Assembly (NCBI GenBank): GCA_905236705.1
Contig: CAJOOZ010000111.1
Coordinates: 1 to 37,375, forward strand
Direction of reading: 5' to 3'
DNA length: 37,375 nt
From: an uncultured Lachnospiraceae bacterium
Lineage (GTDB): Bacteria; Bacillota; Clostridia; Lachnospirales; Lachnospiraceae
Shown: piece after piece, positions 1 to 16,247 of the stretch
Numbering within the stretch: position 1 is the stretch's first letter
Layout: the number at the start of each line of letters is the position of its first letter
Notes under the pieces: generated by a model
Told to the model about the DNA's origin: nothing
The model's input: only the letters and a program-made list of their open reading frames with translations
Database searches by the model: none
Translations under genes and position numbers: made by a program

Positions 1-426
1 GCGCAGCTGGAACCGGTTCTGGATATATACAATGAGTATGTACAGACCAAAGCGGATAATGATTATCTGAATGCTGTATATGCGCAGACCCAGAATAACA
101 ATGCGCAGTTGAAGGAGACCATAGAAGAGCTGGAAGAGAAGATGCCCAGCAATATCGAAGTGAATACACTTGCCGTAACACCCGAGACGCTGGCGCTGAC
201 ATTCAGAGTCAAGACCAAGGAAGAAGTGGCAATGGCCATCATGCAGTTGAGGACCTTCAGGAGCTTCTCCAATGTGGCGGTTGCATCTCTTAATGAAGTG
301 CATGATGAAGAGAGCGGAGATGTATATGTTGAGTCGCAGGCTCTCTGCACTTATGGTATAAATCCTTGGCTGGAACCTGAAGAGGGCGAGCAGGAAGCAC
401 CTGCGGAAGAAGCGGCAGCTGAGTGA
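1..426 (+). CDS. PilN-like pilus assembly protein (C-terminal part, 5' end outside window)
   Basis: An open frame runs from base 1 to the TGA at 424-426, leaving 141 residues of a protein that begins upstream. What remains is a Gln/Glu/Asn-rich helix of about 50 residues, probably coiled coil, then a small domain with alternating strands and a helix (from 'MPSNIEVNTLAV' onward), and an acidic Glu/Ala/Pro tail. This is the layout of the periplasm-facing part of PilN/GspL-type proteins, which pair with PilO/GspM to link the inner-membrane platform to the pilus. The N-terminal membrane segment is not visible. The call rests on fold pattern and on the next gene being PilO-like. The stop overlaps the run-up to the next gene, so the two are probably translationally coupled. 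A generic alignment-subcomplex protein is the fallback call. Confidence 0.6.
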   Translation, partial: AQLEPVLDIYNEYVQTKADNDYLNAVYAQTQNNNAQLKETIEELEEKMPSNIEVNTLAVTPETLALTFRVKTKEEVAMAIMQLRTFRSFSNVAVASLNEVHDEESGDVYVESQALCTYGINPWLEPEEGEQEAPAEEAAAE

Positions 427-440
427 GGGAGGACGGAAAG

Positions 441-1259
441 ATGAATAAAAACAGTGTAGGAATTTTATTGGCAGTACTTGGAATCGGAGCGGCTGTCGTG
501 GGATATTTCGTAATCTTCCAGAATTTCACCGACAAAAAGGATCAGCTGGCGACGGCGAATGCATCATTGCAGACTGAGGTGGATCATCTGCAGGATCTGG
601 CAGATCACAAGCAGGAATATCTGGACGAGACAGCCAACATGAAGGCACAGGATGATGAGATTATTGCACAGTTCCCTGTAGAAGTCAGGACTGAAGATGA
701 GATCATGTATCTGAGAAACAGTGAAAATGCTTTCGGGGTTTATGTGAGTGCGATTTCGATGCCTGAAGCAAACGTGGTTGAGGTCGCAAGACCCGAGCCC
801 GAAGTGGCAGAGGCAGGCGACAATGGAACTGAGGAAGCGGCTGAAGCGACGGAAGACGGAGAGGTTGTCGAGGATACCGCTGAGGAAGCGGCTCCCGCAG
901 CACCCCAGATCCTGCTGTATCAGACTCCCGTATCCTGCAATCTGGATACATCTTATGCGTCCATAAAGGATATGATTCATGCCATTGTTTCCGATGTAGA
1001 TAACAAAAAGTCCTTTGAAAATCTGGCACTTAATTTTGATTCACAGACCGGTGCTTTGACAGGCTCTATGAGCTACAGTATGTATTCCCTGACCGGTACG
1101 GACAAATCTTATGTTGAGCCTTCTGTACCCGGTGTAGCGATCGGTACAAACGATATCTTTAATACGACACAGAGAAGTATCGAGCTCGCAGCCCAGAAAC
1201 AGGCGGCTGCGGCAGCAGCGGCAGCCAATGCGGCGGCAGAGGCAAACGAAGGGCAGTAA
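441..1259 (+). CDS. PilO-like pilus assembly protein
   Basis: This is a 272-residue bitopic protein with a short cytoplasmic start, one hydrophobic segment (about residues 5-28) and a helical, probably coiled-coil stretch (about 30-75). A strand-rich domain follows, interrupted by a very acidic Glu/Ala/Pro insert (about 110-150). The tail is an alanine-rich helix with a run of eight Ala. That order matches PilO/GspM-type alignment proteins, which partner PilN. I chose ATG 441 over an in-frame GTG at 423 because GGAGGA at 428-433 sits 7 bases upstream of it, and because the GTG would add charged residues before the membrane segment. The acidic insert and Ala tail are not typical of Gram-negative PilO, so the family call is by architecture and context rather than a recognised motif. 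Confidence 0.6.
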   Translation: MNKNSVGILLAVLGIGAAVVGYFVIFQNFTDKKDQLATANASLQTEVDHLQDLADHKQEYLDETANMKAQDDEIIAQFPVEVRTEDEIMYLRNSENAFGVYVSAISMPEANVVEVARPEPEVAEAGDNGTEEAAEATEDGEVVEDTAEEAAPAAPQILLYQTPVSCNLDTSYASIKDMIHAIVSDVDNKKSFENLALNFDSQTGALTGSMSYSMYSLTGTDKSYVEPSVPGVAIGTNDIFNTTQRSIELAAQKQAAAAAAAANAAAEANEGQ

Positions 1260-1343: not shown

Positions 1344-2777
1344 ATGAAGAAAATGCGCAAAGGAAAAAAGAATAAAGGTTTTACATTGGTGGAGCTGATC
1401 ATTGCAGCTGCGATCATGGCGATTATCGTGGCTCCGCTTCTGGGCAATTTTGTTCAGTCGGCCAAGATCAACCAGAAGGCTCGTGAGAATCTGAACGGTA
1501 TGAATATGGCGCAGGATTTCATGGAAGGAATTGCTTCATATACCGGAGATGAAGTTATCAATATGTTTGAGAGCGGAGCTTCGCTGTCCGGGACGATCCT
1601 TCCGGCTACTACGGCATACAGCTCTCATGGAGATATTGATGCTGCGGGCAATGTTTCTTTTGAGTCAGCCGGCGGCACTGCTACCGGTACACCCGTGTAC
1701 TCACAGGAGAGAACCTATGATGCGACCAATCATATATCCCGCACACCTGTTGCAGCTGATGAATATCATTTTTTTGTAAAAGGCGTGCAGATGGGTGGAC
1801 ATACATACGATTATGATGTCAAATTGAAATCCATCATCAAAAATAAAAAGGCGCAGGCATCAACGATCGATAAGACTTATGATGCTGTTTATTCCGCCCC
1901 TGAGGCATTTCAGGAATCCATTAATGACCCTATTAAGGGGTTCGTCAGGAATGGTGCATCGCCGACGGATCTGACGGGGCGTGTAAAACGCCGCATTACT
2001 GTTCGCATCAAGGTAGAGGATCATGCTGACGCCGATCCGGACAATGATGAATATCCGGTCACGGTGACGGATGAGTTTGTGGCCGAAGGCGTTGCGGGGC
2101 TTTCAGGTACGGGTAGCATCTATCAGGTTACAGATGAAACCAATATTTTTGCAAATGCGGCAGCAAAACAACCTGAGAGCGTATATATCTATTATCCCGC
2201 ATCCATTGAGGGAACGGCCAGTGTTGCCAGTGAAGAGTTTTGGATTGAGAATAAGACCAATAATGATGTGAACGTATTTCTGATCAGACAAAAGAACATA
2301 ACTCCAGTATACAACTCTGTAGGCAGTGCGAGTGTGTATGTGAGTGATGAGGGAAGTGACGGTAAGCTGCATACCTATCTGATTACCAATGCCAGATTCG
2401 ATTTAAACCATAATTTCAGTGAGAACCTGAGAACCAAAAATGAGAGCGGTCAGTCAAATGATGATGAATATCTGGCGGACATGTATGGTATTACCTATAA
2501 TGTGACCGAAGGTAAGTATGAGTGGCCGTCAACATCCTTTTATGATAAGAGCAAATGCGAATTTAAATACAGGCGGGGGACTGGACTGGCCGATGGAGCG
2601 GGATATCAGATCATTCAGGATACTGCAAACGGTGTCGTTCCGGCATATAATGACATCATTTCGGATGGGATCATGAAGAGAGATTCGGCTGCAGCTTTTG
2701 ATGTGGAGATTATTGTAAATGATGTCTCGAGGGGCAACAAAAAAGTGGCGTCTTACGAAGGGGCTTTATCCAATTGA
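1344..2777 (+). CDS. large type IV prepilin-like protein (GspI/PilV-like)
   Basis: This 477-residue protein has a class III (prepilin) signal. A 12-residue basic leader ends in Lys-Gly, followed by Phe-Thr-Leu-Val-Glu-Leu, which puts the conserved Glu at mature position 5 (E17). A hydrophobic helix runs to about residue 35. A prepilin peptidase would cut after G12. The helix continuing after the membrane part ('ENLNGMNMAQDF') resembles GspI/PilV. The remaining roughly 400 residues are a strand-rich extracellular region of no family I recognise, two to three times longer than usual for a minor pilin. ATG 1344 is preferred over the in-frame TTG at 1305 because AGAGG at 1331-1335 lies 8 bases upstream and it gives a normal prepilin leader. 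It is probably an initiating or tip pilin of the pilus. Confidence 0.75.
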   Translation: MKKMRKGKKNKGFTLVELIIAAAIMAIIVAPLLGNFVQSAKINQKARENLNGMNMAQDFMEGIASYTGDEVINMFESGASLSGTILPATTAYSSHGDIDAAGNVSFESAGGTATGTPVYSQERTYDATNHISRTPVAADEYHFFVKGVQMGGHTYDYDVKLKSIIKNKKAQASTIDKTYDAVYSAPEAFQESINDPIKGFVRNGASPTDLTGRVKRRITVRIKVEDHADADPDNDEYPVTVTDEFVAEGVAGLSGTGSIYQVTDETNIFANAAAKQPESVYIYYPASIEGTASVASEEFWIENKTNNDVNVFLIRQKNITPVYNSVGSASVYVSDEGSDGKLHTYLITNARFDLNHNFSENLRTKNESGQSNDDEYLADMYGITYNVTEGKYEWPSTSFYDKSKCEFKYRRGTGLADGAGYQIIQDTANGVVPAYNDIISDGIMKRDSAAAFDVEIIVNDVSRGNKKVASYEGALSN

Positions 2778-2824
2778 CCTGGGCAATATACAAGGTTTTA
2801 TTGAGTGAGAAAGGATGTAAACGG

Positions 2825-5485
2825 ATGATGACAGGACTAATGAAGCGGATCAATCAGCGGCGCAAAAAAGGAAATTCCGGTGCTGCGCTTATTATGGTTA
2901 TCATTGTGACGGCGTTTGTCGGAATGCTGGTTGCCATGGTTGTGTATATGGCTTACGGCAACTATCTGATGAAATATAATGATAAGATGGGCAAGGACAA
3001 TTTCTATTCCGCTGAACGTGTTCTGAGCATCATCAACGGACATCTTCAGGAAGAGTCTTCCAAATCCATGATGAATGCTTATTCCAATGCGCTTCAGACT
3101 GCCAATAATGCCGGCTCTACGCAGCTTGCCAATTATCAGTCAGGTTACATTGATGCGATCTATGACGAATTGCGGGATGCTGCGGATGCAGGTCACTGGA
3201 ATAAGAGCCTGCTGAGGGGATATGCGTCCGCCGAGAGTGTTCCCCTGGCCGCCACTCCGGGGGCATACGGAGCCTACATTGATGTCAGAGCAGGCGGAGA
3301 GAATCTGCTTGTAAAAGAGGATCAGAAGTCCGTTACTTTAAAGGATCTCCGCATTGTTTATACGGATGACCAGGGATATGTCTCCATAATCGAGACCGAT
3401 ATCGTAATGGTAACACCGGATATCTCCTTTGCGGCTGAGTCCAAATCTCTGCCTATTTCCGATTTCTCGCTTGTTGCGAATGAGAATCTTTATATTGATA
3501 CAGGTAAGGGCGGAACAGACAATGTCAAGATCAGTGGTGATGTCTACGCCGGTATGGAGGGCTTGAAGGTAGGAAATTCCACTACGGCTTCCTTCGAATC
3601 CGCGGATCCGACAGATGCGAGTCTGTCTTATAAACTGATCGCCAAAAACATTGATGTATCCAATTCCATCGCTGCGAATGAACTGAAGGTTGATACTCCT
3701 TATGAAACCTTTGTAAACAATATAAATCTTGATGCCGGTCATGCAACCCTGGGCGGCGTTATGAATGTGGGAGATGATCTGGAGATTTCGGGAGAGAGGT
3801 CCTCCGTCAAGCTCAAGGGCAGGTACATCGGTTACGGTGACAGCAACAGCTCATCCGACGTCAGCAGTTCGATTCTGATCAACGGTGCCGATACCAAATT
3901 GGATTTCTCGGAACTGGAAAAGCTGGTGATCTCGGGTTATGCTTTTGTGGGCGCCACCAAATATGATGCCAACTCTACCAGATACAATGCTGTATATGGA
4001 GCAAATGCATCGGATGATGATGACAAGATCGAGGATGTGGACGCTTACAATCAGACACTTGAAGAAAAGGGGACCAAGATCCCGCAGATCGATCCCGTGA
4101 CGGGTGAGTTGTTGCCGGGAGAGACGAATACGGGCAATCTGGATACAACTGTTTCGAATACTTCTAATCCCATGATGGGTGAGTCCATGGCATCCAAGGC
4201 GGAGCAGATGATCTATATGGTACCCGCAGAATGTATCGGTTATCTGAATGATCCTGCCACCATGTCAAGCGCTAACGGCGTTACGGTTCCCACCGTGCAG
4301 GTGCTCGGCAAGAATCCCATGACCGCCGCTGAATATGAGATGCTGACCAGGGATCTCAAGCAGGGCTACGGATGGGATGACTACAATACGATCGCAGCCC
4401 AGGTGCAGGCCGACACTACCATTGCGGCAGGAGACAAGGAGCGGGAGATCAGGGAGCGCAGGGCTGCCTGGGTGAAGGCCAACAGACAGTATATCCCCGT
4501 GGATCTGAATATCCTGACCAGCAAGATGCCCAATCTGCCGGCCAATTTTTTGAGCAATGAGTCCTACAAGGCTGTATACAGGAGAGTAAACGGTTCCGTG
4601 CTGGTATATCTGTATATTGATTTCGGTTCCGATGTCAGTCGTGCCAATACTTTCTACAGGGCATATTATGATTATGATTCAAAGTCATTGGAGAATTATA
4701 TCTCCTCTTATGTGGACAAGAACAACTTCAAGTGGAATGCAAACTGGAAGAGTAATCACGCAGTTAACGCGTTAGGCAAAAAGGTTGATTATAAAACTGC
4801 AGCGGCCAATCCGGATGTTGAGTCACTGCTGACGAACAGTAATATGTTCTTCTATGACAACCGCAGGAATCTGTCCCTGATGGAGGATACGGCTACGGGT
4901 ACAGACGCTTCCGCAACCATCGCTTCGGAGATGTACAATTACAGAGCGTCCAATACCAGAAGCTTCAATGGTCTTCTTTATCTGCTGGATGCATCCAAGG
5001 TGCCCAGTCAGGCGCAGAAGGAGAAGACGCTTTTTGAAAATCTGATCGATGAGAGCAAGCTGCCGACCGCTGAAGCTCCGAAAAGGCTGTATAATCAGAA
5101 GGTCGGAGGCGCTGCGGCCGGAGCAACTGATCCCATAGGAGTAGTGAAATACGGAGATTATACTTATCCCACTGAGGATGGTGATCAAATAAAGGTTATC
5201 GTTTCAACAAAGGATATCTATATAACGCAGGATTTTAACGGTCTTGCACTGGCCAAGGGAAATATTTATGTGTCTGCGGGCTGCAGCAAGATCAATGCTG
5301 ATAAGGCCAATGTGGACACGGTACTGAAACAAAAGACGGTAGCCGATGCTGTTAATGAGATGAAGGTTATCTTTTACGGTGCTGAGGTCGGTGATGATGC
5401 AGAGATCGACAACACGCGTGAGAGTGACGAAAATAAAGTAGTATTAAGTGATTACATTAATTATGAGAATTGGGTAAAGGAATAA
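2825..5485 (+). CDS. very large GspK/PilX-like pilin without +5 Glu
   Basis: This is an 886-residue protein with a basic leader (KRINQRRKKGNSG), a likely cleavage after G19, then Ala-Ala-Leu-Ile-Met and a long hydrophobic helix. Mature position 5 is Met (M24), not Glu, which is the hallmark of GspK/PilX proteins that cap the pseudopilus tip. Residues about 234-375 and about 797-815 contain short alternating strands with 'KISGDVYAG', 'LGGVMNVGDDLEISG' and 'LALAKGNIYVS'. This looks like a parallel beta-helix or bactofilin-type repeat (inference). GspK proteins are usually near 300 residues, so this one is nearly threefold longer. ATG 2825 has AAAGGA at 2810-2815, and the upstream in-frame TTG at 2774 is unlikely. 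The gene lies 47 bases after the previous pilin, in the same operon. Confidence 0.65.
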   Translation: MMTGLMKRINQRRKKGNSGAALIMVIIVTAFVGMLVAMVVYMAYGNYLMKYNDKMGKDNFYSAERVLSIINGHLQEESSKSMMNAYSNALQTANNAGSTQLANYQSGYIDAIYDELRDAADAGHWNKSLLRGYASAESVPLAATPGAYGAYIDVRAGGENLLVKEDQKSVTLKDLRIVYTDDQGYVSIIETDIVMVTPDISFAAESKSLPISDFSLVANENLYIDTGKGGTDNVKISGDVYAGMEGLKVGNSTTASFESADPTDASLSYKLIAKNIDVSNSIAANELKVDTPYETFVNNINLDAGHATLGGVMNVGDDLEISGERSSVKLKGRYIGYGDSNSSSDVSSSILINGADTKLDFSELEKLVISGYAFVGATKYDANSTRYNAVYGANASDDDDKIEDVDAYNQTLEEKGTKIPQIDPVTGELLPGETNTGNLDTTVSNTSNPMMGESMASKAEQMIYMVPAECIGYLNDPATMSSANGVTVPTVQVLGKNPMTAAEYEMLTRDLKQGYGWDDYNTIAAQVQADTTIAAGDKEREIRERRAAWVKANRQYIPVDLNILTSKMPNLPANFLSNESYKAVYRRVNGSVLVYLYIDFGSDVSRANTFYRAYYDYDSKSLENYISSYVDKNNFKWNANWKSNHAVNALGKKVDYKTAAANPDVESLLTNSNMFFYDNRRNLSLMEDTATGTDASATIASEMYNYRASNTRSFNGLLYLLDASKVPSQAQKEKTLFENLIDESKLPTAEAPKRLYNQKVGGAAAGATDPIGVVKYGDYTYPTEDGDQIKVIVSTKDIYITQDFNGLALAKGNIYVSAGCSKINADKANVDTVLKQKTVADAVNEMKVIFYGAEVGDDAEIDNTRESDENKVVLSDYINYENWVKE

Positions 5486-5498
5486 GCGGGGTATGACG

Positions 5499-6017
5499 AT
5501 GACAGAGGGAAAGAACCATAACAGAAAAAACGGCGGATATACGTTGGTCGAGTTGGTCGTGGTCATAGCGATCCTATCCGTACTGATCGGTCTCATCGGT
5601 TATAATATATCGGTGGTATGGTCCTTTAATGCCCGCGAGTGTTCCAAGAAGATTACAACGGACATTCAGTCCCTGAAGGTGACCACACTCTCCAAATCTG
5701 CGACTTTTGGCGATACCTATATGAAGGTGTACTATGACGGGAAAAATGTTATGCGCAAGTTCCACTACAAGGATGGTTCGGAAGAAGAGGAACAGATCGG
5801 CAAGAGAGTGAAGGTGTACTATGGAGATGGCACGGCTCTGACCGAGATAGGTACTGAAGGGGGCGGCGAGCTTACGATCACCTTCGACAGATCCTCGGGG
5901 GCGATCAAGGACAGTTCCGGAGCAGTTTCGGGCGTGAAGAAGATCGTGGTTGAGAGTGGTAAAACCTATACGATTGATGTGACGCCGCAGACCGGCAAGG
6001 TGAATCAGAAGTTGTAA
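5499..6017 (+). CDS. GspH/FimT-like minor prepilin
   Basis: This 172-residue prepilin has a leader ending in Gly-Gly (G12-G13), then Tyr-Thr-Leu-Val-Glu, placing Glu at mature position 5 (E18), followed by a Val/Ile-rich membrane helix. The C-terminal half has the GspH/FimT pattern: a strand 'ELTITFDRSSGAI', a Gly-containing turn, then 'TYTIDVTPQTGKV' at the end. Its length is normal for the family, unlike its neighbours. ATG 5499 is preferred over ATG 5493 because GCGGGG at 5486-5491 is 7 bases from 5499 but only 1 base from 5493. In known systems the GspH/FimU-type pilin connects the tip complex to the major pilin fibre. Confidence 0.75.
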   Translation: MTEGKNHNRKNGGYTLVELVVVIAILSVLIGLIGYNISVVWSFNARECSKKITTDIQSLKVTTLSKSATFGDTYMKVYYDGKNVMRKFHYKDGSEEEEQIGKRVKVYYGDGTALTEIGTEGGGELTITFDRSSGAIKDSSGAVSGVKKIVVESGKTYTIDVTPQTGKVNQKL

Positions 6018-6071
6018 TGGTAATATTAGTTGCGAGATTAAGGGATATGCGTTTACGGGAGGATATGTAGT

Positions 6072-8720
6072 ATGAAGAGAAGGAATGGCGGATTTACAAT
6101 CATGGAACTGATTGTAGCGATCGGTATTTTGGGATCGCTTACTGTCATGACGGCCGGACTGATGGATACTTCATCCGGTACATACCGCAACATCGGAACG
6201 GAGTCACAGCTTCAGTCCGAGGCACAGCTTGTTGCAAACGCGATCTCCGAGGTGATCATTGACGGAAAGAAGGTCGCCAAATTTACGGATACGGCGACTG
6301 TGGTTGACGGGGCAGGTTCTTTTGATAACTCCAATGCAGGCAATAACGGTGTCGGCGCTTTCATTCCGGTTTGGATCGATGACAATACGATCCGTATCAT
6401 TGCCAGAGATACGGCCAAGGACGAGGTTTATATGTTTGACTGTCCGGCAGTGGAAGATGCGGATGGAAATGTAAACGTGACGGCTCCTACCGAGGTTTCC
6501 CTGCTTGGTCAGCATGTTACGGCTTTCTCTGTGAATCTTGCCAGAGCAGCAGGTCCCAGGATCATTGATTATTCCATGACCTATGAAAAGGGTGGTAAGA
6601 GCTACAAGGGTGATTACCAGATCTTTATGCGAAACGGCGGCTCTGCTGCGACGGTTTCCGCAAATGAGGCGGTGGATGAGGCCAAGCTGATCAATGCTAC
6701 TGTATCCCCCAAGATCGTTTATATTGATGTTTATGATAAGAAACTGAAGGGAACCTATTATAAGGAAAGTCTTTTGACTGCTCCTTCCACTTTTGTAGGG
6801 GATCCTTCGATCGATCTGACAGCGACTGTATTACAGCAGGGCTTCGGTATTGCCGGTGATATGCTGCATGAATATAACTTGAACTGGTCATTGGGAGGCG
6901 GTGCGCCTGCAGCAGTGACCATGACCGGTGACAACACTGCTGCTATGAAGCTGCAATTTGATAATACTACCTTTGACTATTCCAATGATCTTACCGCATA
7001 CCAGTTCCAGGTGGATTTTGAAGCGGAGGGTATCACCAAGGAAGCAGGCACTGATGCAGCCGGCAATCCTGTATATACAACGACTGATACACAGGTCAAA
7101 TCGGATTATACGACGATTTATTTCCGTCTCTGCCGCAAGGTTGATGTCACTCCTGTGGTCAGCGCCAACATCAGTGAATGGGACGAGGCAAGATTTGTCG
7201 GTAGCGGTATGTATGCCAGTGGCGCAAGCAAGGTCAATGGGATCAATTATTATGCAAGACCCGACTCCACGATCACCATTACAGGTGTGTGCGACAGTCC
7301 GAATGTAGCGACCGACCAGCCTACCTGGAAGCTTGAGTACAGGCTGAGGACTGAGACGGATGCGGCTTACAGGGCTGTTCCCGCTTCCGTTGCCAGATTG
7401 GCGAATGCTGCAACGGCTGCCAATACCAATAGCATAAGGATCGGTTCATCAGCGACCAATGATATGGTATTCCGCGTTACTTGTACCTCTACTTTTGACG
7501 ACACGATATCAGGTAAATATGAGTTTGGTATCCAGCCTTCGATGAATGCCGGCGATACCGGCGGATTTTTCAGCCGTGGATATTATACCGATATGAATCA
7601 GCTGTTCAAGGATAACTGGACGCAGTACACGAGTCCTGACGGTCATGAGCTTTTCAAAACCCAGGGTGGAAATCCGCAGATTGATAGTCTGGTATACCTG
7701 AAATGCGAGGGGATCTACGGCAAGCTTTCCGGTCATGGTACTCCGGATATGGTCAAGATCACCTATGACACGGACGGAACGCCGCGGATGTATATCGATT
7801 ACCAGGCATTCCAGTTCAGCGGACAGGACAAGAATGATTTTTATAAATGGGGCTGTCAGCTCAAGTTCTATTATGGATACAAGGACACGTCAGGTAATTA
7901 TTATCTGAATACGACTGATTCGACCATCGTTGCCGATATGCGCTCGCATCTGCCTTCCGATAACCGGAGTGCAGCGATCGGTGTGGCCGACGGCGAATGT
8001 GTCTATAATCTGGGCGGTGTTTCCGTTTCCAAGATCACACCTGCAAGCGGATTTATACTCCTGAACAAAGGTGAGACTCAGAATGTGGGCATCAAGACGA
8101 ACTATTACAACATTATGCGTCCCGACGGCGGTAATTATTACCTGGGTGCATATCTGGGCGATATGACTACCAACGACAAGAGCAACAACCTGATCCAGCC
8201 CGGCAAGGGTGAGACTGATGCGTATTGTACGGTTGAAATGATCAGTGACTATGGTGATGTCAATAAATATGTTGAAAATGCCTATATCAGTCTGGGAGCC
8301 AAGAATACAAATGCGCAAAAGAATTTCCTGACAAAGCCCATGACACTCAGACTGACGGCCAATGATTTCTATACCATCAGTATGAGCGAGGAGGCTTCCT
8401 GGTCGGATTACACGCTGCTGATCTCCAATCTGATGGGCAGCGACGAGAAGACGACAGATGCGGAGGTATATTTCCCCGTACCGGATTATGACGCAGCGGG
8501 GAATTCGGCCTCATTCAGCGTGAATGGTGTAAATATGCAGTTCCCCAAAAAGAATAATGTATCGACCAATCCCGCAGGGGGAACCGAAATAACAGGAATA
8601 AACAAGAGCGGTACATCCATAAAGGGTAAATGCTATTATAACGGCAACCGCCTGTATCTGGAGTACAACGCCAAGAAATATGTATATGATTCTGTTTACA
8701 AGTGCTGGAAGCGCGCATGA
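6072..8720 (+). CDS. very large type IV prepilin-like protein (GspJ/PilW-like)
   Basis: This 882-residue protein has the shortest leader of the set, seven residues ending in Gly-Gly, then Phe-Thr-Ile-Met-Glu with Glu at mature position 5 (E12), and a hydrophobic helix. The stretch after it ('TESQLQSEAQLVANAIS') resembles the GspJ/PilW alpha-helical spine. The remaining roughly 800 residues are rich in Asp, Thr, Tyr and Gly, with predicted beta character and no family I can name; they look like several extracellular beta domains. GspJ/PilW proteins are usually 200-300 residues, so this is a strong enlargement. GGGAGGA at 6057-6063 lies 8 bases from ATG 6072. A tip or adhesive role is inferred from the operon. 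Confidence 0.7.
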   Translation: MKRRNGGFTIMELIVAIGILGSLTVMTAGLMDTSSGTYRNIGTESQLQSEAQLVANAISEVIIDGKKVAKFTDTATVVDGAGSFDNSNAGNNGVGAFIPVWIDDNTIRIIARDTAKDEVYMFDCPAVEDADGNVNVTAPTEVSLLGQHVTAFSVNLARAAGPRIIDYSMTYEKGGKSYKGDYQIFMRNGGSAATVSANEAVDEAKLINATVSPKIVYIDVYDKKLKGTYYKESLLTAPSTFVGDPSIDLTATVLQQGFGIAGDMLHEYNLNWSLGGGAPAAVTMTGDNTAAMKLQFDNTTFDYSNDLTAYQFQVDFEAEGITKEAGTDAAGNPVYTTTDTQVKSDYTTIYFRLCRKVDVTPVVSANISEWDEARFVGSGMYASGASKVNGINYYARPDSTITITGVCDSPNVATDQPTWKLEYRLRTETDAAYRAVPASVARLANAATAANTNSIRIGSSATNDMVFRVTCTSTFDDTISGKYEFGIQPSMNAGDTGGFFSRGYYTDMNQLFKDNWTQYTSPDGHELFKTQGGNPQIDSLVYLKCEGIYGKLSGHGTPDMVKITYDTDGTPRMYIDYQAFQFSGQDKNDFYKWGCQLKFYYGYKDTSGNYYLNTTDSTIVADMRSHLPSDNRSAAIGVADGECVYNLGGVSVSKITPASGFILLNKGETQNVGIKTNYYNIMRPDGGNYYLGAYLGDMTTNDKSNNLIQPGKGETDAYCTVEMISDYGDVNKYVENAYISLGAKNTNAQKNFLTKPMTLRLTANDFYTISMSEEASWSDYTLLISNLMGSDEKTTDAEVYFPVPDYDAAGNSASFSVNGVNMQFPKKNNVSTNPAGGTEITGINKSGTSIKGKCYYNGNRLYLEYNAKKYVYDSVYKCWKRA

Positions 8721-8742: not shown

Positions 8743-11700
8743 ATGAAAAAAAACAAGACGCTGAAAAGAATACTGATGGGAACGCTTGGATTTGCACTTG
8801 CGGTCATTGTATTCTTCACGAGTACCATGCAGGGAGTCAGGGAAGTAGAGGCGGCCAGCACCAAGGTGTTTGACCTGATCACTTCCAAATACGGCGCCAA
8901 TGGCAGTGAGCTCAAGATCCTGGAGGTAATTCCGGATCAGGCTACCGTGGCTTATCCTGCGGGAGGACCGCTTGGTCCGCCTGCAAGCGCTACCGGCGGC
9001 AAGTTCAATTATGCTAATAATATCAGTCCCAGGGCTGAGATGGGTTATTTCCTCTGGAGAGGTGAAAATTGGAGGGACGGAGCATGGCAGAATGATAATA
9101 ATGCACCGCTTTTGCTGAATCCATCCATGTCTACCTGGGGTACCGGTCTGAATGTGGATGAGCCTCATAATGACAAGACTACGGAATATTCTGGACTGAT
9201 GTACAATATGTATCAGTACGGTATGATCAAGCAGGTGGGACAGGATACGGGTCATGAGTTCCCGATCTATGGATCTACTACGGGCAACACACCTGTTTCC
9301 GTATATGAGAGCTATTCGGCAGCCGGTTATACCGCTTATGATGGCACTGATGCGGTCGTCAGGGGTGTTTATTCCAACCAGCCGGGAGAATACGATTTTG
9401 CCGACAAGGAGGCATCGAACGGAGATACGGTAGATGCGGACGGCAATGTGACAAACAGTGACGGTTTGGTATTCAAATATGGTGGCTATGCGATTGACGA
9501 TGCCACCGGCGATATTTATTTTACAGAGAGTTACAGTCTGGGAGCAGACTCTGTCAGTGAGAATTCCACAGTCAGCGCTAACAGTGCAGAAAGGCCTGAA
9601 GGACTCAGGAGAGGCGCTAACAGAACGGACGCCTATGGAACATATAAGATGGATGAGGACACCTATCCCGAGACAATAACGGGTGACAGTGTGGTATTCC
9701 GTTTCAATCTTGTTCCGGATAATACCTCCAAGCTGGAGATCCCGGGTATGCTGACCTTCCGTGGCAAAGGAAATACGGACGGCAAAGTGAAGTTTACCAG
9801 AACAGAGACGGCTACGTCGGAGAAGACGCAGTATCTGGGCTATTCCGAAAGAAGTCTGTTCTTTAACACTTCGGAGAATGTCAGATTCTACAGCAGTGAC
9901 CAGTTCAGACAATATGTACTGGGTGATACGGAGAAATATCATGACAAGGTGCTGATGTATGAGACCGTTGCCTCCGGTGACCTGACCGCCAAGATGGTAG
10001 AGGATTCGGATCTGATCTATATTTCCGGTAAGGCGGAAGAGTTTAACAATATGGATATCTCTACCGAGGCTATGATCGCCCTGTACGATAAAGAGGTAAA
10101 TGATCACAAGGCGGTTATGATGGATTATGCCTGCTATTCTCCATCGCTGGATTCCAACGTATCCTGTCTGGCGCTTCTGCTCTGGCAGCAGTCCCAGAGT
10201 GCGGTTCAGCAGGAATATGACAGTCTGTTTGAGATCGATGAGAATCTGGGAACGGGCAAGCTGAAGGAGCAGAACGGAGCAGTCTTTGATTTTGGAAGCA
10301 ATGCGATCACAAAGGGTCTGAAAGAGTCTATGATGACCGGCGCAAACGGTAACTTTGTGGTTGGTAATGTATATGTATATAATCATCATGTCAATGACTT
10401 TACCAATCCCAAGTCCCTGGTGGATGCCGGTGACAACTTTGCCAACGGTGATTTTTCCAGTGCATACAAATCCGAGGTGGAATCGGCAGGCTTCCAGGAT
10501 GTAAAGAATTATATTGCGTCCACCAACAAGGCTTCAACGACATCCGGACAGATGGCAACGTCAGTGACACCTGCCGTGGCGATCCAGTACATTTTGATCA
10601 ATACCGGTGAGCTGACGGTTATGAAGCAGGAACTCAGGATATTGGAGATCGAACCTGTAGTGAGCTTTCTGTACAATGAGTATGCAGGGTCGGAAGAGTA
10701 TGGCTATCTGCCGAACAAGTATCAGAAGAACAGAAGGGACTTTATCGAGAATTATCTTTCCGATTATTACAAGGACAAGACGGAATATATCCAGTTCGTA
10801 TCCAAGACTGTTGATGAATTCAACGGAAGTAATGAGGATTTGATCGAGAGCTACGATATCATCTTTATCGGCAGCGAGATGGGTACTCTGTACTTTACCG
10901 GAGATGGTAATACTATAGATGCTCGTGATACGAATCCGTCCAGGAAATGGGATGATACCAACGGTTATGATCTCACGCAGACACAGAAAATTGAACTGTC
11001 GATCTTCAGGGCGGATACTAAAATGGCTGGTATTTCCGATATAAATTATCGTATGACCGGTAATGTATATTATACCCAGGGCGATACATTTGAACACGAT
11101 GATGAAAGATTGTGGGGTACAAGGGATTATCTGGTAAATAATACGAATGATAATCGACGTGCCAAGCGATTTACCTCCAGGGATATTACCCGTAACAAGC
11201 TGACCAAGCTGAAGGAATATCTGGATGCGGAGAATCTCATCATCTGTGAAAAGGATCTGATGAGTCAGGTGGGGGATTCGGGAGAAGAACAGATCAATCC
11301 TTCCTGTATTTATCTGGATGATAATGCGCCGCTCAGGATAGCCAATACGGATAAGAAGCTTGAGGATTGCGGCAGGATCGATAACTCCAGCAATATGTAT
11401 GAGCTCTTCAAGTATTCCCAGGGATATGAGTTCTGCATGGACGTGACAAGTGCCGACTACGGTAAATATATTGGCATCACCGATGGTATGGGTTCCAGCA
11501 GGGAGGATAACATCAAGCCGAATCTGGTCAGTGCGGGCGATCTGCTGACAGGCAAGACCGCCAAGACCGTTGCGGAAAAATATGTTGCCACTGACAAGAT
11601 ATCCCTGACCATGAACAAGATTCCCATGGAGTATGGCTATGATACCTATGCTGCCACACAGAATCGAGACGGTAATGGAGCCGGTGAAACGCATTTCAGG

Positions 11701-13995
11701 GGTACACTGGTTGCGGACAGTATCAAATATCTGGAAAAGGATTCCGACAATAACAGGGAACTGGTTTATGATTTTGTGATCAATTCCAATTCAACGGTTT
11801 CGGATACATATACGCCTTACCTGTTTGTGGATATCAACAATGACGGTAAGTTCTCCAAAGAAACGGAGATGATCACGGATGCCCAGGTATTTGTCAAGGC
11901 GACGGGAGCCGAGGCGGACATGGATATCACGGGCGATCACTATGTGCTGTACAGAGATGTGGAATATGAATTAAAACGTCCCGTTGATAAGGATTATTAT
12001 GGCTTTATCAAATGGAAGCTGTATCTGAGTTCTCTTTCCGATTCCAAGATCCATGCATCTGTCGATGGCAGCACTGTTGCAGAAAACCTCGGAGATACGG
12101 TTGATCTGAAGATTCTGCAGCTGAACCATAATGGAGCCTCTACGCTGAATCTTCAAAATGAACTGGAGCGGCGGAACGGTACCGGGGATAACAGAACGTT
12201 TATGCGTTATCTGAGCGAGATTCCGGGATATAATCTGTATATCCGGACTATAACGGTACAGGAGTTTGAAAATGATTTTAATGCAAAGTATACTGCAGCC
12301 TACAATGCGGCTCCGGCAGGTGCCAAGCCTACGGTAGAGCAGTATTCCGAGACATATTTCGATGAATATGAGTTTACCAGAACGATCAACGGTGCTACAT
12401 CCACCAAACAGGGCTGTGATATGCTGGTGCTGGGCTTCGGTGATGATTATGCCAACTTTGCGACTGACAATGCGATGAATGCTGTCAGAAGGTTTATCGA
12501 AAACGGAAATCCGACCCTGATGACCCATGACTTTATCATGTTTGACGGTAATTACAAGCAGGTTGGCTATCTGCGTGATCTGGTAGGTATGGACAAATAT
12601 GGTAATTCCACATTGGTAACGGACGGTGGTGTGACCTATAACTACAAGACAAACGCCGGCGATCCGAATCTGCACGATTACTTAAGGTCAGGCCTGCAGT
12701 ATACCAGAGACGATCAAAAGAATGTATTTGCAGCGATAGAGAGCACCGGCAGACAGGTGGCATACGAACCGGGTACGCTGAGAAGCAGGACCAGCCGGTA
12801 TACCTATGGATTTACGGATGCAACCTTCTTCCGCTATAAATGGGGTGATTGGTTTAATACTCACAGATGGCATGCATGGCTGAACACGCCGAAGGTATAT
12901 ATTGCTCAGGGTCAAGGTCAGGAGGGATATCAGAACGAATATTATGTAGATCAGCTTAACAGCGGTCAGATCACGGATTATCCTTATCACATCAGCAGCA
13001 GATATCGGGTAGCTAATACCCACTTCCAGTATTTCGAACTGAATCTGGATGCGGATGATGATAATGACGGTGAGTCCGATGTGGTAGTATGGTACACGCT
13101 GGGTGATGTGGCCAATACGGACAGGCACAACATCTTCGGTAAAGATGGTGATTATAAGCATGCTTCTACCGCTTATTACATTTATAACAAGGGTAACGTT
13201 ACCTATACCGGTGCAGGACATTCGGGTCTGGAGCAAACAACGGATGAAGAGGCGATGCTGTTTGTAAATTCCCTGTTTGCAGCCCTGCAGAGCAAGCTGG
13301 TTGCACCTTCCGCAGGTTTCTATGAAACCCCTGTGATCACCGCATCGCCGATCTCTTCTCTGGCGGTACCTTATGACGGTAATGTGACCGCAGGTACGAA
13401 TCCGGATTCCAGTATCATCAAGGGAACCGATGGTGAATACAAGTATAAATTTGTTGATCCGAACGCAAATGCGGGACAGGTCGCAAACGGTACCAAGATG
13501 TTCTTCAGGATGTCAGATGCCAACTTTGTACGTGGTACCAAGAGTATGGAAGCGCGTATGTATATTGCCGTACCCGGCATGAAGGTTGGAGACAACTTCA
13601 CATTGACAAACGGCGCATCGAGACCTGTGGTACAGGTGAATGTTAACGGGGAGTCGGTTCCCTGCGTAGAGGCGACGGATCTGATCAATGTGTATAATGT
13701 CAACAACGGTGAATTTGGTTCACAGATCGGTCTGTTGAATCGTACCGTGACGGATGCCACCGGGCGCTCCGATACATTCAAGGTTCTCACAGGCTTGAAG
13801 TCCCAGGTTACCTACGGCTTCTATCTGCCGATGGCATACTTAAAAGACAAAGCAAGCTTCAGCATCATTTTGGAGTCTTCCTCCATGCTGACCGCCAAAT
13901 CGGCTATCACCGGTGCTGACACCACGACGACCATGACTGATTCAGGCTTTAATGCTCTGACAGTAACCAAGGCTGACCTGCTGGATCTGGATTGA
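8743..13995 (+). CDS. giant secreted protein of pilus operon, possibly DUF5057-type, PilY1-position
   Basis: This 1750-residue protein has a Sec signal peptide (basic MKKNKTLKR, a hydrophobic core, then a VEA-type cleavage site near residue 37) and no LPxTG or C-terminal membrane anchor. Three regions begin with a similar strand: 'ELKILEVIP' (residue 56), 'ELRILEIEP' (630) and 'DLKILQLNH' (1121). Each is followed later by a second strand: 'SDLIYISGK' (422), 'YDIIFIGSE' (704) and 'CDMLVLGFG' (1225). This suggests three diverged Rossmann/GATase1-like modules. Near 1030 is an EF-hand-like loop 'DINNDGKFSKETE', and at 1438-1446 a DxDxDGxxD loop. 'YTGAGHSG' followed by 'LFVNSLFAAL' is typical of large clostridial proteins I remember as DUF5057, but I could not check this. 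AAGGAG at 8728-8733 precedes the ATG. As the last operon gene after the minor pilins, it may be tip-associated. Confidence 0.6.
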   Translation: MKKNKTLKRILMGTLGFALAVIVFFTSTMQGVREVEAASTKVFDLITSKYGANGSELKILEVIPDQATVAYPAGGPLGPPASATGGKFNYANNISPRAEMGYFLWRGENWRDGAWQNDNNAPLLLNPSMSTWGTGLNVDEPHNDKTTEYSGLMYNMYQYGMIKQVGQDTGHEFPIYGSTTGNTPVSVYESYSAAGYTAYDGTDAVVRGVYSNQPGEYDFADKEASNGDTVDADGNVTNSDGLVFKYGGYAIDDATGDIYFTESYSLGADSVSENSTVSANSAERPEGLRRGANRTDAYGTYKMDEDTYPETITGDSVVFRFNLVPDNTSKLEIPGMLTFRGKGNTDGKVKFTRTETATSEKTQYLGYSERSLFFNTSENVRFYSSDQFRQYVLGDTEKYHDKVLMYETVASGDLTAKMVEDSDLIYISGKAEEFNNMDISTEAMIALYDKEVNDHKAVMMDYACYSPSLDSNVSCLALLLWQQSQSAVQQEYDSLFEIDENLGTGKLKEQNGAVFDFGSNAITKGLKESMMTGANGNFVVGNVYVYNHHVNDFTNPKSLVDAGDNFANGDFSSAYKSEVESAGFQDVKNYIASTNKASTTSGQMATSVTPAVAIQYILINTGELTVMKQELRILEIEPVVSFLYNEYAGSEEYGYLPNKYQKNRRDFIENYLSDYYKDKTEYIQFVSKTVDEFNGSNEDLIESYDIIFIGSEMGTLYFTGDGNTIDARDTNPSRKWDDTNGYDLTQTQKIELSIFRADTKMAGISDINYRMTGNVYYTQGDTFEHDDERLWGTRDYLVNNTNDNRRAKRFTSRDITRNKLTKLKEYLDAENLIICEKDLMSQVGDSGEEQINPSCIYLDDNAPLRIANTDKKLEDCGRIDNSSNMYELFKYSQGYEFCMDVTSADYGKYIGITDGMGSSREDNIKPNLVSAGDLLTGKTAKTVAEKYVATDKISLTMNKIPMEYGYDTYAATQNRDGNGAGETHFRGTLVADSIKYLEKDSDNNRELVYDFVINSNSTVSDTYTPYLFVDINNDGKFSKETEMITDAQVFVKATGAEADMDITGDHYVLYRDVEYELKRPVDKDYYGFIKWKLYLSSLSDSKIHASVDGSTVAENLGDTVDLKILQLNHNGASTLNLQNELERRNGTGDNRTFMRYLSEIPGYNLYIRTITVQEFENDFNAKYTAAYNAAPAGAKPTVEQYSETYFDEYEFTRTINGATSTKQGCDMLVLGFGDDYANFATDNAMNAVRRFIENGNPTLMTHDFIMFDGNYKQVGYLRDLVGMDKYGNSTLVTDGGVTYNYKTNAGDPNLHDYLRSGLQYTRDDQKNVFAAIESTGRQVAYEPGTLRSRTSRYTYGFTDATFFRYKWGDWFNTHRWHAWLNTPKVYIAQGQGQEGYQNEYYVDQLNSGQITDYPYHISSRYRVANTHFQYFELNLDADDDNDGESDVVVWYTLGDVANTDRHNIFGKDGDYKHASTAYYIYNKGNVTYTGAGHSGLEQTTDEEAMLFVNSLFAALQSKLVAPSAGFYETPVITASPISSLAVPYDGNVTAGTNPDSSIIKGTDGEYKYKFVDPNANAGQVANGTKMFFRMSDANFVRGTKSMEARMYIAVPGMKVGDNFTLTNGASRPVVQVNVNGESVPCVEATDLINVYNVNNGEFGSQIGLLNRTVTDATGRSDTFKVLTGLKSQVTYGFYLPMAYLKDKASFSIILESSSMLTAKSAITGADTTTTMTDSGFNALTVTKADLLDLD

Positions 13996-14153: not shown

Positions 14154-16247
14154 ATGACTAAGAATCTGGTTATTGTGGAGTCCCCTGCAAAGGTAAATAC
14201 CATCAAAAAGTTTTTGGGCAGTAATTATGAAGTGATGGCCTCAAACGGGCACGTCAGAGATCTGCCAAAGAGCAGGATGGGCATTGATGTGGATCATGAC
14301 TTTGATTTTCAATATATTACGATCCGCGGCAAAGGTGAGCTGTTGGCGGGCCTTCGCAAGGCCGTGAAAAAGTCTGATAAAATCTATCTGGCAACCGACC
14401 CCGACCGTGAGGGGGAGGCGATTTCCTGGCATCTGGCTGCGGCTCTGAAGCTGGAGGAGCAAAATAAGCCGGTATACAGGATCACTTTTAACGAGATCAC
14501 CAAAAATGCGGTAAAAGCTTCCCTGAAGAATGCGAGAGCCATTGACATGAATCTTGTGGATGCACAGCAGGCCAGACGCGGACTGGACCGGCTGGTGGGA
14601 TATCAGATCTCGCCGGTGCTGTGGGGCAAGATCAAGAGAGGTCTGTCCGCGGGCAGAGTGCAGTCCGTGGCGCTGAGGATCATTTGCGACAGAGAAGAAG
14701 AAATAGCGGCATTCGAGCCCAGGGAGTACTGGACGCTTGATGCCCTGCTGGATGCATCTAACAAGGTGAAAGGCGCGGGGCTGAATGTGCATTTTTACGG
14801 CGATCAGAACGGCAAGATAGAGCTGACAGACAAAAAGCAGGTGGAAGCGATCGAAAAAGCCTGCAAAAATAACAGATTCACAGTGAGCGAATGTAAAAAG
14901 GGCGAGCGGATACGCAAGTCGCCGCTTCCGTTTACAACCTCTACCCTGCAGCAGGAGGCTTCCAAGGCGCTGAATTTTTCGGCGCAAAAGACCATGCGCC
15001 TGGCGCAGCAGCTCTATGAGGGAGTTCCGATCAAGGGTAGCGGAACGGTGGCGCTCATCACCTATCTGCGTACCGATTCCACCCGTGTGTCAGAGGAAGC
15101 GCAGAGATCTGCAAGGGAATTCATTACCGGGTATTACGGAGAAAACTATGCGGCTTCGTCATCCGTCGTCAAAAAAAGCAGCGGTGCCAAGGTGCAGGAT
15201 GCGCATGAAGCTATCAGACCGACGGATATCGAACGTGTGCCGAGCGATCTGAAAAACGCACTGCCCAGGGATCTGCTCAGGCTGTATCAGCTGATCTGGA
15301 AACGGTTCTGCGCCTCCCAGATGTCGGCTGCGGTCTATACGACGGTTTCGGCTGATTTTACAGTGGGAGAGTATGTCTTCAGAGCATCCGATTCCACGGT
15401 GAAATTCCCCGGTTTCATGAGCGTTTATACCGAGGCGGAGGAAGTTGCGACAGAAGACGGCAAGCCGGAGGAAAAGCCTGCCAAAGCAAAAGCGAAAACA
15501 GCTTTGAAAAAGAAATCCGATGAAAGCGGAAAGATTCTGGCGCAGCTTACCGAAACGGACAGCTTTGCGGCAGAGAGCTATGACAGTCAGCAGCATTTCA
15601 CACAGCCCCCCGCGCATTTCACGGAGGCCAGTCTGGTACGTACCCTTGAAGAGAAGGGGATCGGCAGACCCAGTACCTATGCTCCTACCATCTCTACCAT
15701 CATGGCGCGGCATTATATTACCAAGGAGCAGCGCAATCTCTATGTGACAGAGCTGGGCGAGGCGGTCAATAAGCTGATGAAGGAGGCTTTTCCTTCCATC
15801 GTGGATGTTTCCTTTACAGCCAATATGGAATCCCTCCTGGATTCGGTTGAAGCCGGCGATGTGGAATATAAGACCGTGATCAGCAATTTTTATCCGGATC
15901 TTCATGAAGCGGTGGAAAAAGCGCAGCAGGAGCTGGAGTCGGTTAAGATTGAGGATGAGGTTTCGGATGTACAGTGTGATATCTGTGGCCGGATGATGGT
16001 GATCAAGTACGGTCCTCACGGCAAGTTCCTGGCCTGTCCGGGATTTCCGGATTGCCGTAATACCAAACCGTATTTTGAAAAGATCGGCCTATTCTGTCCT
16101 TCCTGCGGCGGAGATATCGTGATCAAGCGCACCAGGAAGGGAAGGCGCTATTATGGCTGTATCAACAATCCGGAATGTGATTATATGGTGTGGCAACGGC
16201 CGACCCAGGAGTCGCTGGCTGCGCTGAAAGAGAAAAATGAAAAATAA
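14154..16247 (+). CDS. topA: DNA topoisomerase I (type IA)
   Basis: This 697-residue enzyme relaxes negative supercoils by passing one DNA strand through a transient break. The Toprim domain opens the protein ('LVIVESPAKVNTIKKFLG') and carries the metal-binding DPDREGE motif at residues 82-88. The active-site Tyr is Y304 in 'ITYLRTDSTR'. Two four-Cys zinc ribbons close the protein: C608/C611/C628/C634 and C648/C651/C669/C675. A Lys/Glu/Ala-rich low-complexity stretch (about 430-465) sits where many relatives have a shorter linker. AAGGAG at 14142-14147 lies 6 bases from the ATG. topA followed by codY and flgB is a reduced form of the order seen in Bacillus. Confidence 0.97.
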   Translation: MTKNLVIVESPAKVNTIKKFLGSNYEVMASNGHVRDLPKSRMGIDVDHDFDFQYITIRGKGELLAGLRKAVKKSDKIYLATDPDREGEAISWHLAAALKLEEQNKPVYRITFNEITKNAVKASLKNARAIDMNLVDAQQARRGLDRLVGYQISPVLWGKIKRGLSAGRVQSVALRIICDREEEIAAFEPREYWTLDALLDASNKVKGAGLNVHFYGDQNGKIELTDKKQVEAIEKACKNNRFTVSECKKGERIRKSPLPFTTSTLQQEASKALNFSAQKTMRLAQQLYEGVPIKGSGTVALITYLRTDSTRVSEEAQRSAREFITGYYGENYAASSSVVKKSSGAKVQDAHEAIRPTDIERVPSDLKNALPRDLLRLYQLIWKRFCASQMSAAVYTTVSADFTVGEYVFRASDSTVKFPGFMSVYTEAEEVATEDGKPEEKPAKAKAKTALKKKSDESGKILAQLTETDSFAAESYDSQQHFTQPPAHFTEASLVRTLEEKGIGRPSTYAPTISTIMARHYITKEQRNLYVTELGEAVNKLMKEAFPSIVDVSFTANMESLLDSVEAGDVEYKTVISNFYPDLHEAVEKAQQELESVKIEDEVSDVQCDICGRMMVIKYGPHGKFLACPGFPDCRNTKPYFEKIGLFCPSCGGDIVIKRTRKGRRYYGCINNPECDYMVWQRPTQESLAALKEKNEK

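Follow-up and report, generated by a model that had tools for sequence, protein, structure and literature searches.

Five consecutive genes at positions 1344 to 13,995 of contig CAJOOZ010000111.1 (assembly GCA_905236705.1, uncultured Lachnospiraceae bacterium), here called V, X, H, W, and D, are interpreted as encoding the modular adhesive tip of a monoderm type IVa pilus (T4aP) with a PilY1-like secreted cap, a reading to which we give a probability of about 0.7. The window is the whole 37,375-nucleotide stretch that was analyzed. V-X-H-W is the minor-pilin part of a conserved T4aP operon type, X appears by profile comparison to be a distant relative of the cellulose-binding tapirins, and D occupies a swappable fifth slot. 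The genes are as follows.

1344–2777, forward strand: V, oversized minor pilin in the PilV/GspI position, 477 aa from the ATG at 1344, with an N_methyl match and Glu at +5
2825–5485, forward strand: X, oversized putative GspK/ComZ-type tip pilin of the tapirin superfamily, 886 aa, with no Glu at +5
5493–6017, forward strand: H, GspH/FimT-like minor pilin of normal size, 174 aa (172 aa from the second Met), with an N_methyl match
6072–8720, forward strand: W, GspJ/PilW-like minor pilin, 882 aa, with a graft of ~680 aa that short homologues lack
8743–13995, forward strand: D, giant DUF5057 protein with a Sec signal in the PilY1 position, 1750 aa

The first-pass annotation, made from the sequence, had placed four consecutive pilin genes at 1344–8720, and the open reading frames and leaders were found there. 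It described a four-gene operon; the four genes do stand together, but the fifth gene of the same unit was overlooked.

Conservation of the operon

Relatives of X were searched for in 250 Lachnospiraceae genomes, one per genus, with the single X sequence as the query, and were found in 67 of them. The gene order PilB-PilC-PilA-PilD-PilM(N)-PilO-V-X-H-W-D was kept in about 60 loci, mostly Lachnospiraceae and almost all from different genera, and also in other families of Clostridia. Because the order is conserved in this way, the arrangement of the four pilin genes is not due to chance. Nearly every locus had X between V and H inside its set of pilin genes. The full T4aP set (PilB, PilC, PilD, PilM, PilN, PilO, the major pilin, and the minor pilins) was present in locus L083, which is from the same genus as the window, and in locus L001. 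In loci L047 and L049, the GspH-like gene was relocated between PilD and PilM and did not follow X.

The median lengths of the homologues were 431 aa for V, 808 aa for X (range 672–1024), and 185 aa for H, and the E. coli K-12 proteins used for comparison have 125 (GspI), 327 (GspK), 169 (GspH), and 195 aa (GspJ). The earlier statement that three of the four pilins are two to four times the usual size is thus supported.

Prepilin leaders and minor-pilin roles

The window set has the features of type IV pilins: Gly at −1, a hydrophobic helix, and Glu at +5 except in the K-type member. The Pfam model N_methyl matched V (3.1e-8) and H (8.9e-8); the match of W (7.2e-4) was just under the protein-level cut-off, and above the cut-off in a six-frame search of the genome. 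X has the Gly at −1 and the hydrophobic stretch, with no +5 Glu and no N_methyl match. Among the homologues, Glu at +5 was found in 57/57 V, 53/53 H, and 55/55 W (19 + 36) proteins and in none of the 58 X proteins, which agrees with the first-pass remark that the 886-aa protein lacks this residue.

Roles were assigned by global profile alignment (hhalign) against the Gsp and Ppd sets of E. coli K-12; all hhalign figures given here are pairwise probabilities and not database-wide E-values. W aligned with GspJ/PpdB (79–93%; GspJ 79%, PpdB 91%), H had GspH as its best minor-pilin match (79%), and the major pilin aligned with GspG (94%). These profiles favour GspJ/PilW for W and GspH for H, in both cases through the helix region. 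V was ambiguous (GspG best at 71%, GspI 57%) and is considered GspI-like mainly by position and elimination, with a weak profile preference. X had no hhalign match to E. coli GspK/YgdB and no Pfam match to the T2SSK/PilX models, and PilX_N matched weakly (0.0022) in 2 of the 58 homologues. The proposal of a GspH/I/J/K-like tip set is well supported by the T4aP operon, by the matches of W and H, and by X as a Glu-less protein modeled with GspK/ComZ-type topology, but V is linked to GspI only by position and the weak profile preference.

Predicted structure of X and its relation to tapirins

X was modeled with AlphaFold2 (AF2) from 58 sequences (predicted local distance difference test score [pLDDT] 85.8, predicted template modeling score 0.72). 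The parts of X, from the model unless stated otherwise, are as follows.

2876–3097, forward strand: pilin N-terminal helix, residues 18–91
3269–3412, forward strand: four-strand pilin sheet, residues 149–196
3452–3799, forward strand: stretch aligned to the tapirin beta-helix by hhalign (P 5.5e-9), residues 210–325
3464–3934, forward strand: main part of the beta-solenoid, residues 214–370
3974–5044, forward strand: alpha/beta insertion with no significant Foldseek match, residues 384–740
5081–5296, forward strand: strand-rich return of the solenoid, residues 753–824
5456–5479, forward strand: last strand, taken as the last pilin strand, with sheet pairing assumed from the order, residues 878–885

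X models well as a pilin whose fold is interrupted by a beta-solenoid ahead of the last strand, as in a K subunit of the GspK/ComZ type, where the pairing of the last strand is assumed from its place in the chain. It is likened to ComZ because the order of helix, four strands, solenoid, and last strand is the ComZ topology. In ComZ, the solenoid lies between the penultimate and last pilin strands, the pilin part resembles GspK, and the protein has been proposed to be a tip pilin (PMC6561018).

A Foldseek search with the X model placed two tapirin entries at ranks 1 and 3 (E 0.67–0.96, query TM-score 0.07–0.11), which is not significant alone. Foldseek was therefore dropped as sole proof, and the link was tested by profile–profile alignment with controls and an intermediate family. 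X aligned with the tapirin profile at 95.9% (P 5.5e-9); removal of the helix lowered this to 81%. V, W, and D all remained below 1% against the same profile, and the E. coli beta-helix passengers, reversed alignments, and 30 column shuffles reached at most 2.3%. A generic beta-helix artefact was rejected, since the Ag43/YfaL passengers, reversed, and 30 column-shuffled alignments scored 14–27 vs. 50.

The genus that encodes tapirins was identified by phmmer (1.3e-82 to PDB 6n2b) and is taken to be the heat-loving Caldicellulosiruptor on the basis of the tapirins themselves. There, tapirins are encoded directly after V in the same type IV pilus operon, that is, in the X slot, and have a Glu-less leader. 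In further members of this genus, the slot is taken by an 898-aa X, which matched a tapirin in blastp (4.6e-15) and the Lachnospiraceae X profile in hhalign (98.8%). By sequence comparison, this 898-aa X is an intermediate that links tapirins and the Lachnospiraceae X proteins. The profile evidence indicates that X is distantly related to tapirins, with the sequence homology expected of a member of their superfamily. In locus L186 (genome G1038), there are two tapirin copies; one is intact, and the other is split into several open pieces.

Grafted modules in W and probably in V

The length of W was bimodal, with 36 copies of 168–325 aa and 21 copies of 423–1145 aa; the pilin core can thus be separated from the large part, which is a graft. 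The long and short classes together show W to be a modular pilin, i.e., a pilin module with a grafted non-pilin domain. Pfam identified F5/8 type C domains in the long W of two relatives (best 5.6e-18) and Ig/Big_2 modules in others, and the graft of the window W had no Pfam domain match. In our reading, W carries grafted C-terminal modules, as V probably does. The excess length had been ascribed in the first-pass annotation to domains of unknown kind; the oversize is real, but X has a tapirin-related beta-solenoid and an alpha/beta insertion, and the W of relatives has F5/8 type C or Ig-like modules.

The fifth gene and its slot

D, encoded directly 3′ of W, has a Sec-type N-terminus and a Pfam DUF5057 match (1.6e-58).

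11182–12531, forward strand: DUF5057 domain proper within D (Pfam)

Of 391 genomes of the class, 8 had DUF5057 above the cut-off, and all eight matches lie in type IV pilus operons. In loci that lack D or have a different protein there, the slot is taken by proteins with vWA (L150), NHL propeller (L160), vWA and L-type lectin (L084), vWA and Ig (L153), or NPCBM (L115) domains; the fifth slot is swappable. D contains related alpha/beta modules (hhalign 84–95% between segments), and the model of its core (residues 622–1545, pLDDT 79) has alpha/beta and beta-sandwich parts. The motif GNvTYTGaGH...E..LFvNS of D is one that we take to recall ThuA/class I glutamine amidotransferase-like domains, and there was a weak Foldseek match to Pfp1. 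In locus L159 (G672), from a distant genome of the phylum, a D-type protein of 1535 aa is encoded next to genes for X, W, and PilB/C, in the opposite orientation.

Homology of D to PilY1 was rejected: neither Pfam nor PDB profile searches gave a PilY1 or propeller match, and there was none among the matches listed for the core model. The C-terminal beta-propeller of PilC/PilY1 (IPR008707) was not found in D. D is therefore an analogue of PilY1 by position only, not a family member, and it probably caps the pilus tip.

A wider view, which we hold slightly better than even, would unite tapirins and X proteins in a single superfamily of GspK/ComZ-type tip pilins that spans Bacillota. In this view, the exchangeable fifth slot of the monoderm T4aP (DUF5057, vWA, lectin, NHL propeller) would supply a secreted tip effector in place of PilY1.

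Proposed tip assembly and alternative explanations

In the assembly that we infer, PilD would cleave the prepilins V, H, and W (Glu at +5) and X (no Glu at +5), and the four would assemble into a priming complex of the GspI/H/J/K type. X would be the outermost subunit, and the major pilin would polymerize on the complex. X would bring in the inserted tapirin/ComZ-type beta-solenoid, and W, probably also V, the grafted C-terminal modules. The complex would present the Sec-secreted 1750-aa DUF5057 protein, as PilY1 is presented in diderms, and the whole would act as a retractable adhesive tip binding glycans or a surface. Modular pilins and tip adhesion are established, and the modular tip pilins of Streptococcus sanguinis bind proteins and glycans (PMC8179133, PMC9934059). 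By analogy, adhesion is the best guess for the function of the tip. The operon, the leaders, the pattern of Glu at +5, the X model, the tapirin relationship, and the exchangeable fifth slot come from the computations, and the location at the tip, the order of the subunits, the presentation of D, the adhesive function, and the ligand are inferred.

GH9 cellulases (E < 1e-30) were found in 28 of 66 X-positive and 16 of 183 X-negative genera (Fisher's test, 8e-9). The association held among genomes with flagellin (p 0.012) and among those lacking it (6e-8); this stratification is the only correction of a phylogenetic kind, and a single query sequence served to detect X. The window genome had no GH9, GH5, or GH43 match, and therefore cellulose is not claimed as the ligand in this species, and the ligand is probably not plant fibre.

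This lack of support for a plant-fibre ligand weighs against the adhesive tip, and so do four other results. All Foldseek matches of X had E-values above 0.6. In hmmsearch against PDB, the X profile did not reach the tapirins and gave only weak antifreeze solenoids. When the helix was removed, the post-helix regions aligned with no E. coli minor pilin family in hhalign, and the roles therefore lean on the helix regions, the position, and the X model; the profile comparison proposed in the first-pass annotation matched W and H, but it did not match X, left V ambiguous, and was silent beyond the helix. PilB, PilC, PilA, PilD, and most of PilM of the window operon were not found in the 145-contig assembly.

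The operon could instead serve transformation, as a Com-like or ComZ-like DNA-uptake pilus in which the X solenoid is the DNA receptor, as in Thermus ComZ. The topology of X resembles that of ComZ, a DNA-binding tip pilin, a PilT-like ATPase gene (contig C134) lies near genes that we take to be comM/dprA-like, and V has a sub-threshold ComGE match. However, the solenoid is related in sequence to cellulose-binding tapirins, relatives have carbohydrate-binding or Ig-like modules in W, domains of the adhesin type occupy the fifth slot, and the operon content is T4aP-like (PilM/N/O) and not of the comG type, which makes DNA uptake improbable.

A monoderm secretion pseudopilus resembling the type II secretion system (T2SS), whose minor pilins select the DUF5057 protein or enzymes for export and do not serve adhesion, is still less probable. 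Monoderms have no outer membrane to cross, and the full PilM/N/O set with grafted binding modules better fits a surface filament, although HIJK sets are common to T2SS and type IV pili (PMC10191384), D is Sec-signalled and co-encoded, and GH9 cellulases are enriched in X-positive genera.

It is equally hard to credit that X and the protein of the fifth slot are not filament subunits but adhesins anchored in the wall or membrane, which share the locus and use the prepilin leader as an anchor: a review of the tapirin genus does describe tapirins as beta-helix cellulose adhesins with no occurrence of "pilin" or "type IV pil" (PMC7142884; the original tapirin papers may already propose a link to pilins), but X keeps its place between V and H in nearly every locus, the one member without Glu at +5 is the one expected to lack it as a K subunit, and the X model has a pilin helix and sheet.

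Genomic context

The window begins at base 1 of the contig, and only the end of PilM/N and PilO precede V. A purine-rich stretch resembling a ribosome-binding site lies 5′ of most starts.

1–426, forward strand: C-terminal part of a PilM/PilN-like gene, truncated at the contig start, with 41% identity to the PilM(/N) protein of locus L001 and a hidden Markov model match in synteny
441–1259, forward strand: PilO-like gene in a conserved position, with 35% identity to the PilO-like gene of locus L001

Directly 3′ of the pilus operon, at 14154–37368, are topA, codY, and a long flagellar operon (FlgB, FlgC, FliE, FliF, FliG, FliH, FliI-like, FliJ); topA is also found 3′ of the pilus operon in loci L001, L036, and L037. 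The X operon and flagellin co-occur strongly (56/66 X-positive vs. 72/183 X-negative genera, p 8e-11). A second type IV pilus-like cluster of the same genome (C21:1–11102, L056) has PilD, PilC, PilM, PilO-like, and PilB genes, with minor pilins of normal size (X2 183, V2 138, and W2 287 aa) preceded by a large partial open reading frame (582 aa). The genome also has genes for a Tad-like ATPase and the PilT-like ATPase mentioned above.

Comparison with known systems

If the proposed tip is correct, tapirins, described as structurally unusual adhesins, gain a family and an address, the type IV pilus tip, and the uncharacterized DUF5057 family gains a testable role. It would also suggest how many gut and rumen Lachnospiraceae hold particles or host surfaces, and would challenge the view of monoderm pili without a PilY1-like tip protein; PilC/PilY1 has been stated to be absent in monoderms (PMC9934059).

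Tapirins (PDB 6n2b, 4wa0) share with X the slot after V, the Glu-less type III leader, the helical N-terminal region, the beta-helix core, and a significant profile–profile match. They are 642–660 aa long, whereas X proteins have 672–1024 aa with a further alpha/beta insertion, and cellulose binding has been reported for tapirins only. ComZ of Thermus thermophilus has its solenoid directly ahead of the last pilin strand, a likeness of topology to the X model (PMC6561018), but it binds DNA and belongs to a diderm competence pilus. As in the HIJK tip complex with GspK/PilX, the window has a four-gene set with one Glu-less K-type member and GspJ- and GspH-like partners; its V, X, and W are, however, two to four times larger, and X has a beta-solenoid in place of the GspK alpha-domain. 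Like PilC/PilY1, D is a giant Sec-secreted protein encoded directly after the minor pilins, and the vWA and beta-propeller modules of PilY1 also occur in fifth-slot proteins of other operons in the group, but D itself matches DUF5057 and no propeller, by sequence or among the matches listed for the core model. The nearest monoderm parallel, the T4aP of S. sanguinis with PilB/PilC and PilA, also has bulky adhesive modules grafted on minor pilins; its minor pilins number three, and it reportedly has no PilY1-like protein, whereas the window encodes four, one of them a solenoid pilin, together with a giant secreted protein.

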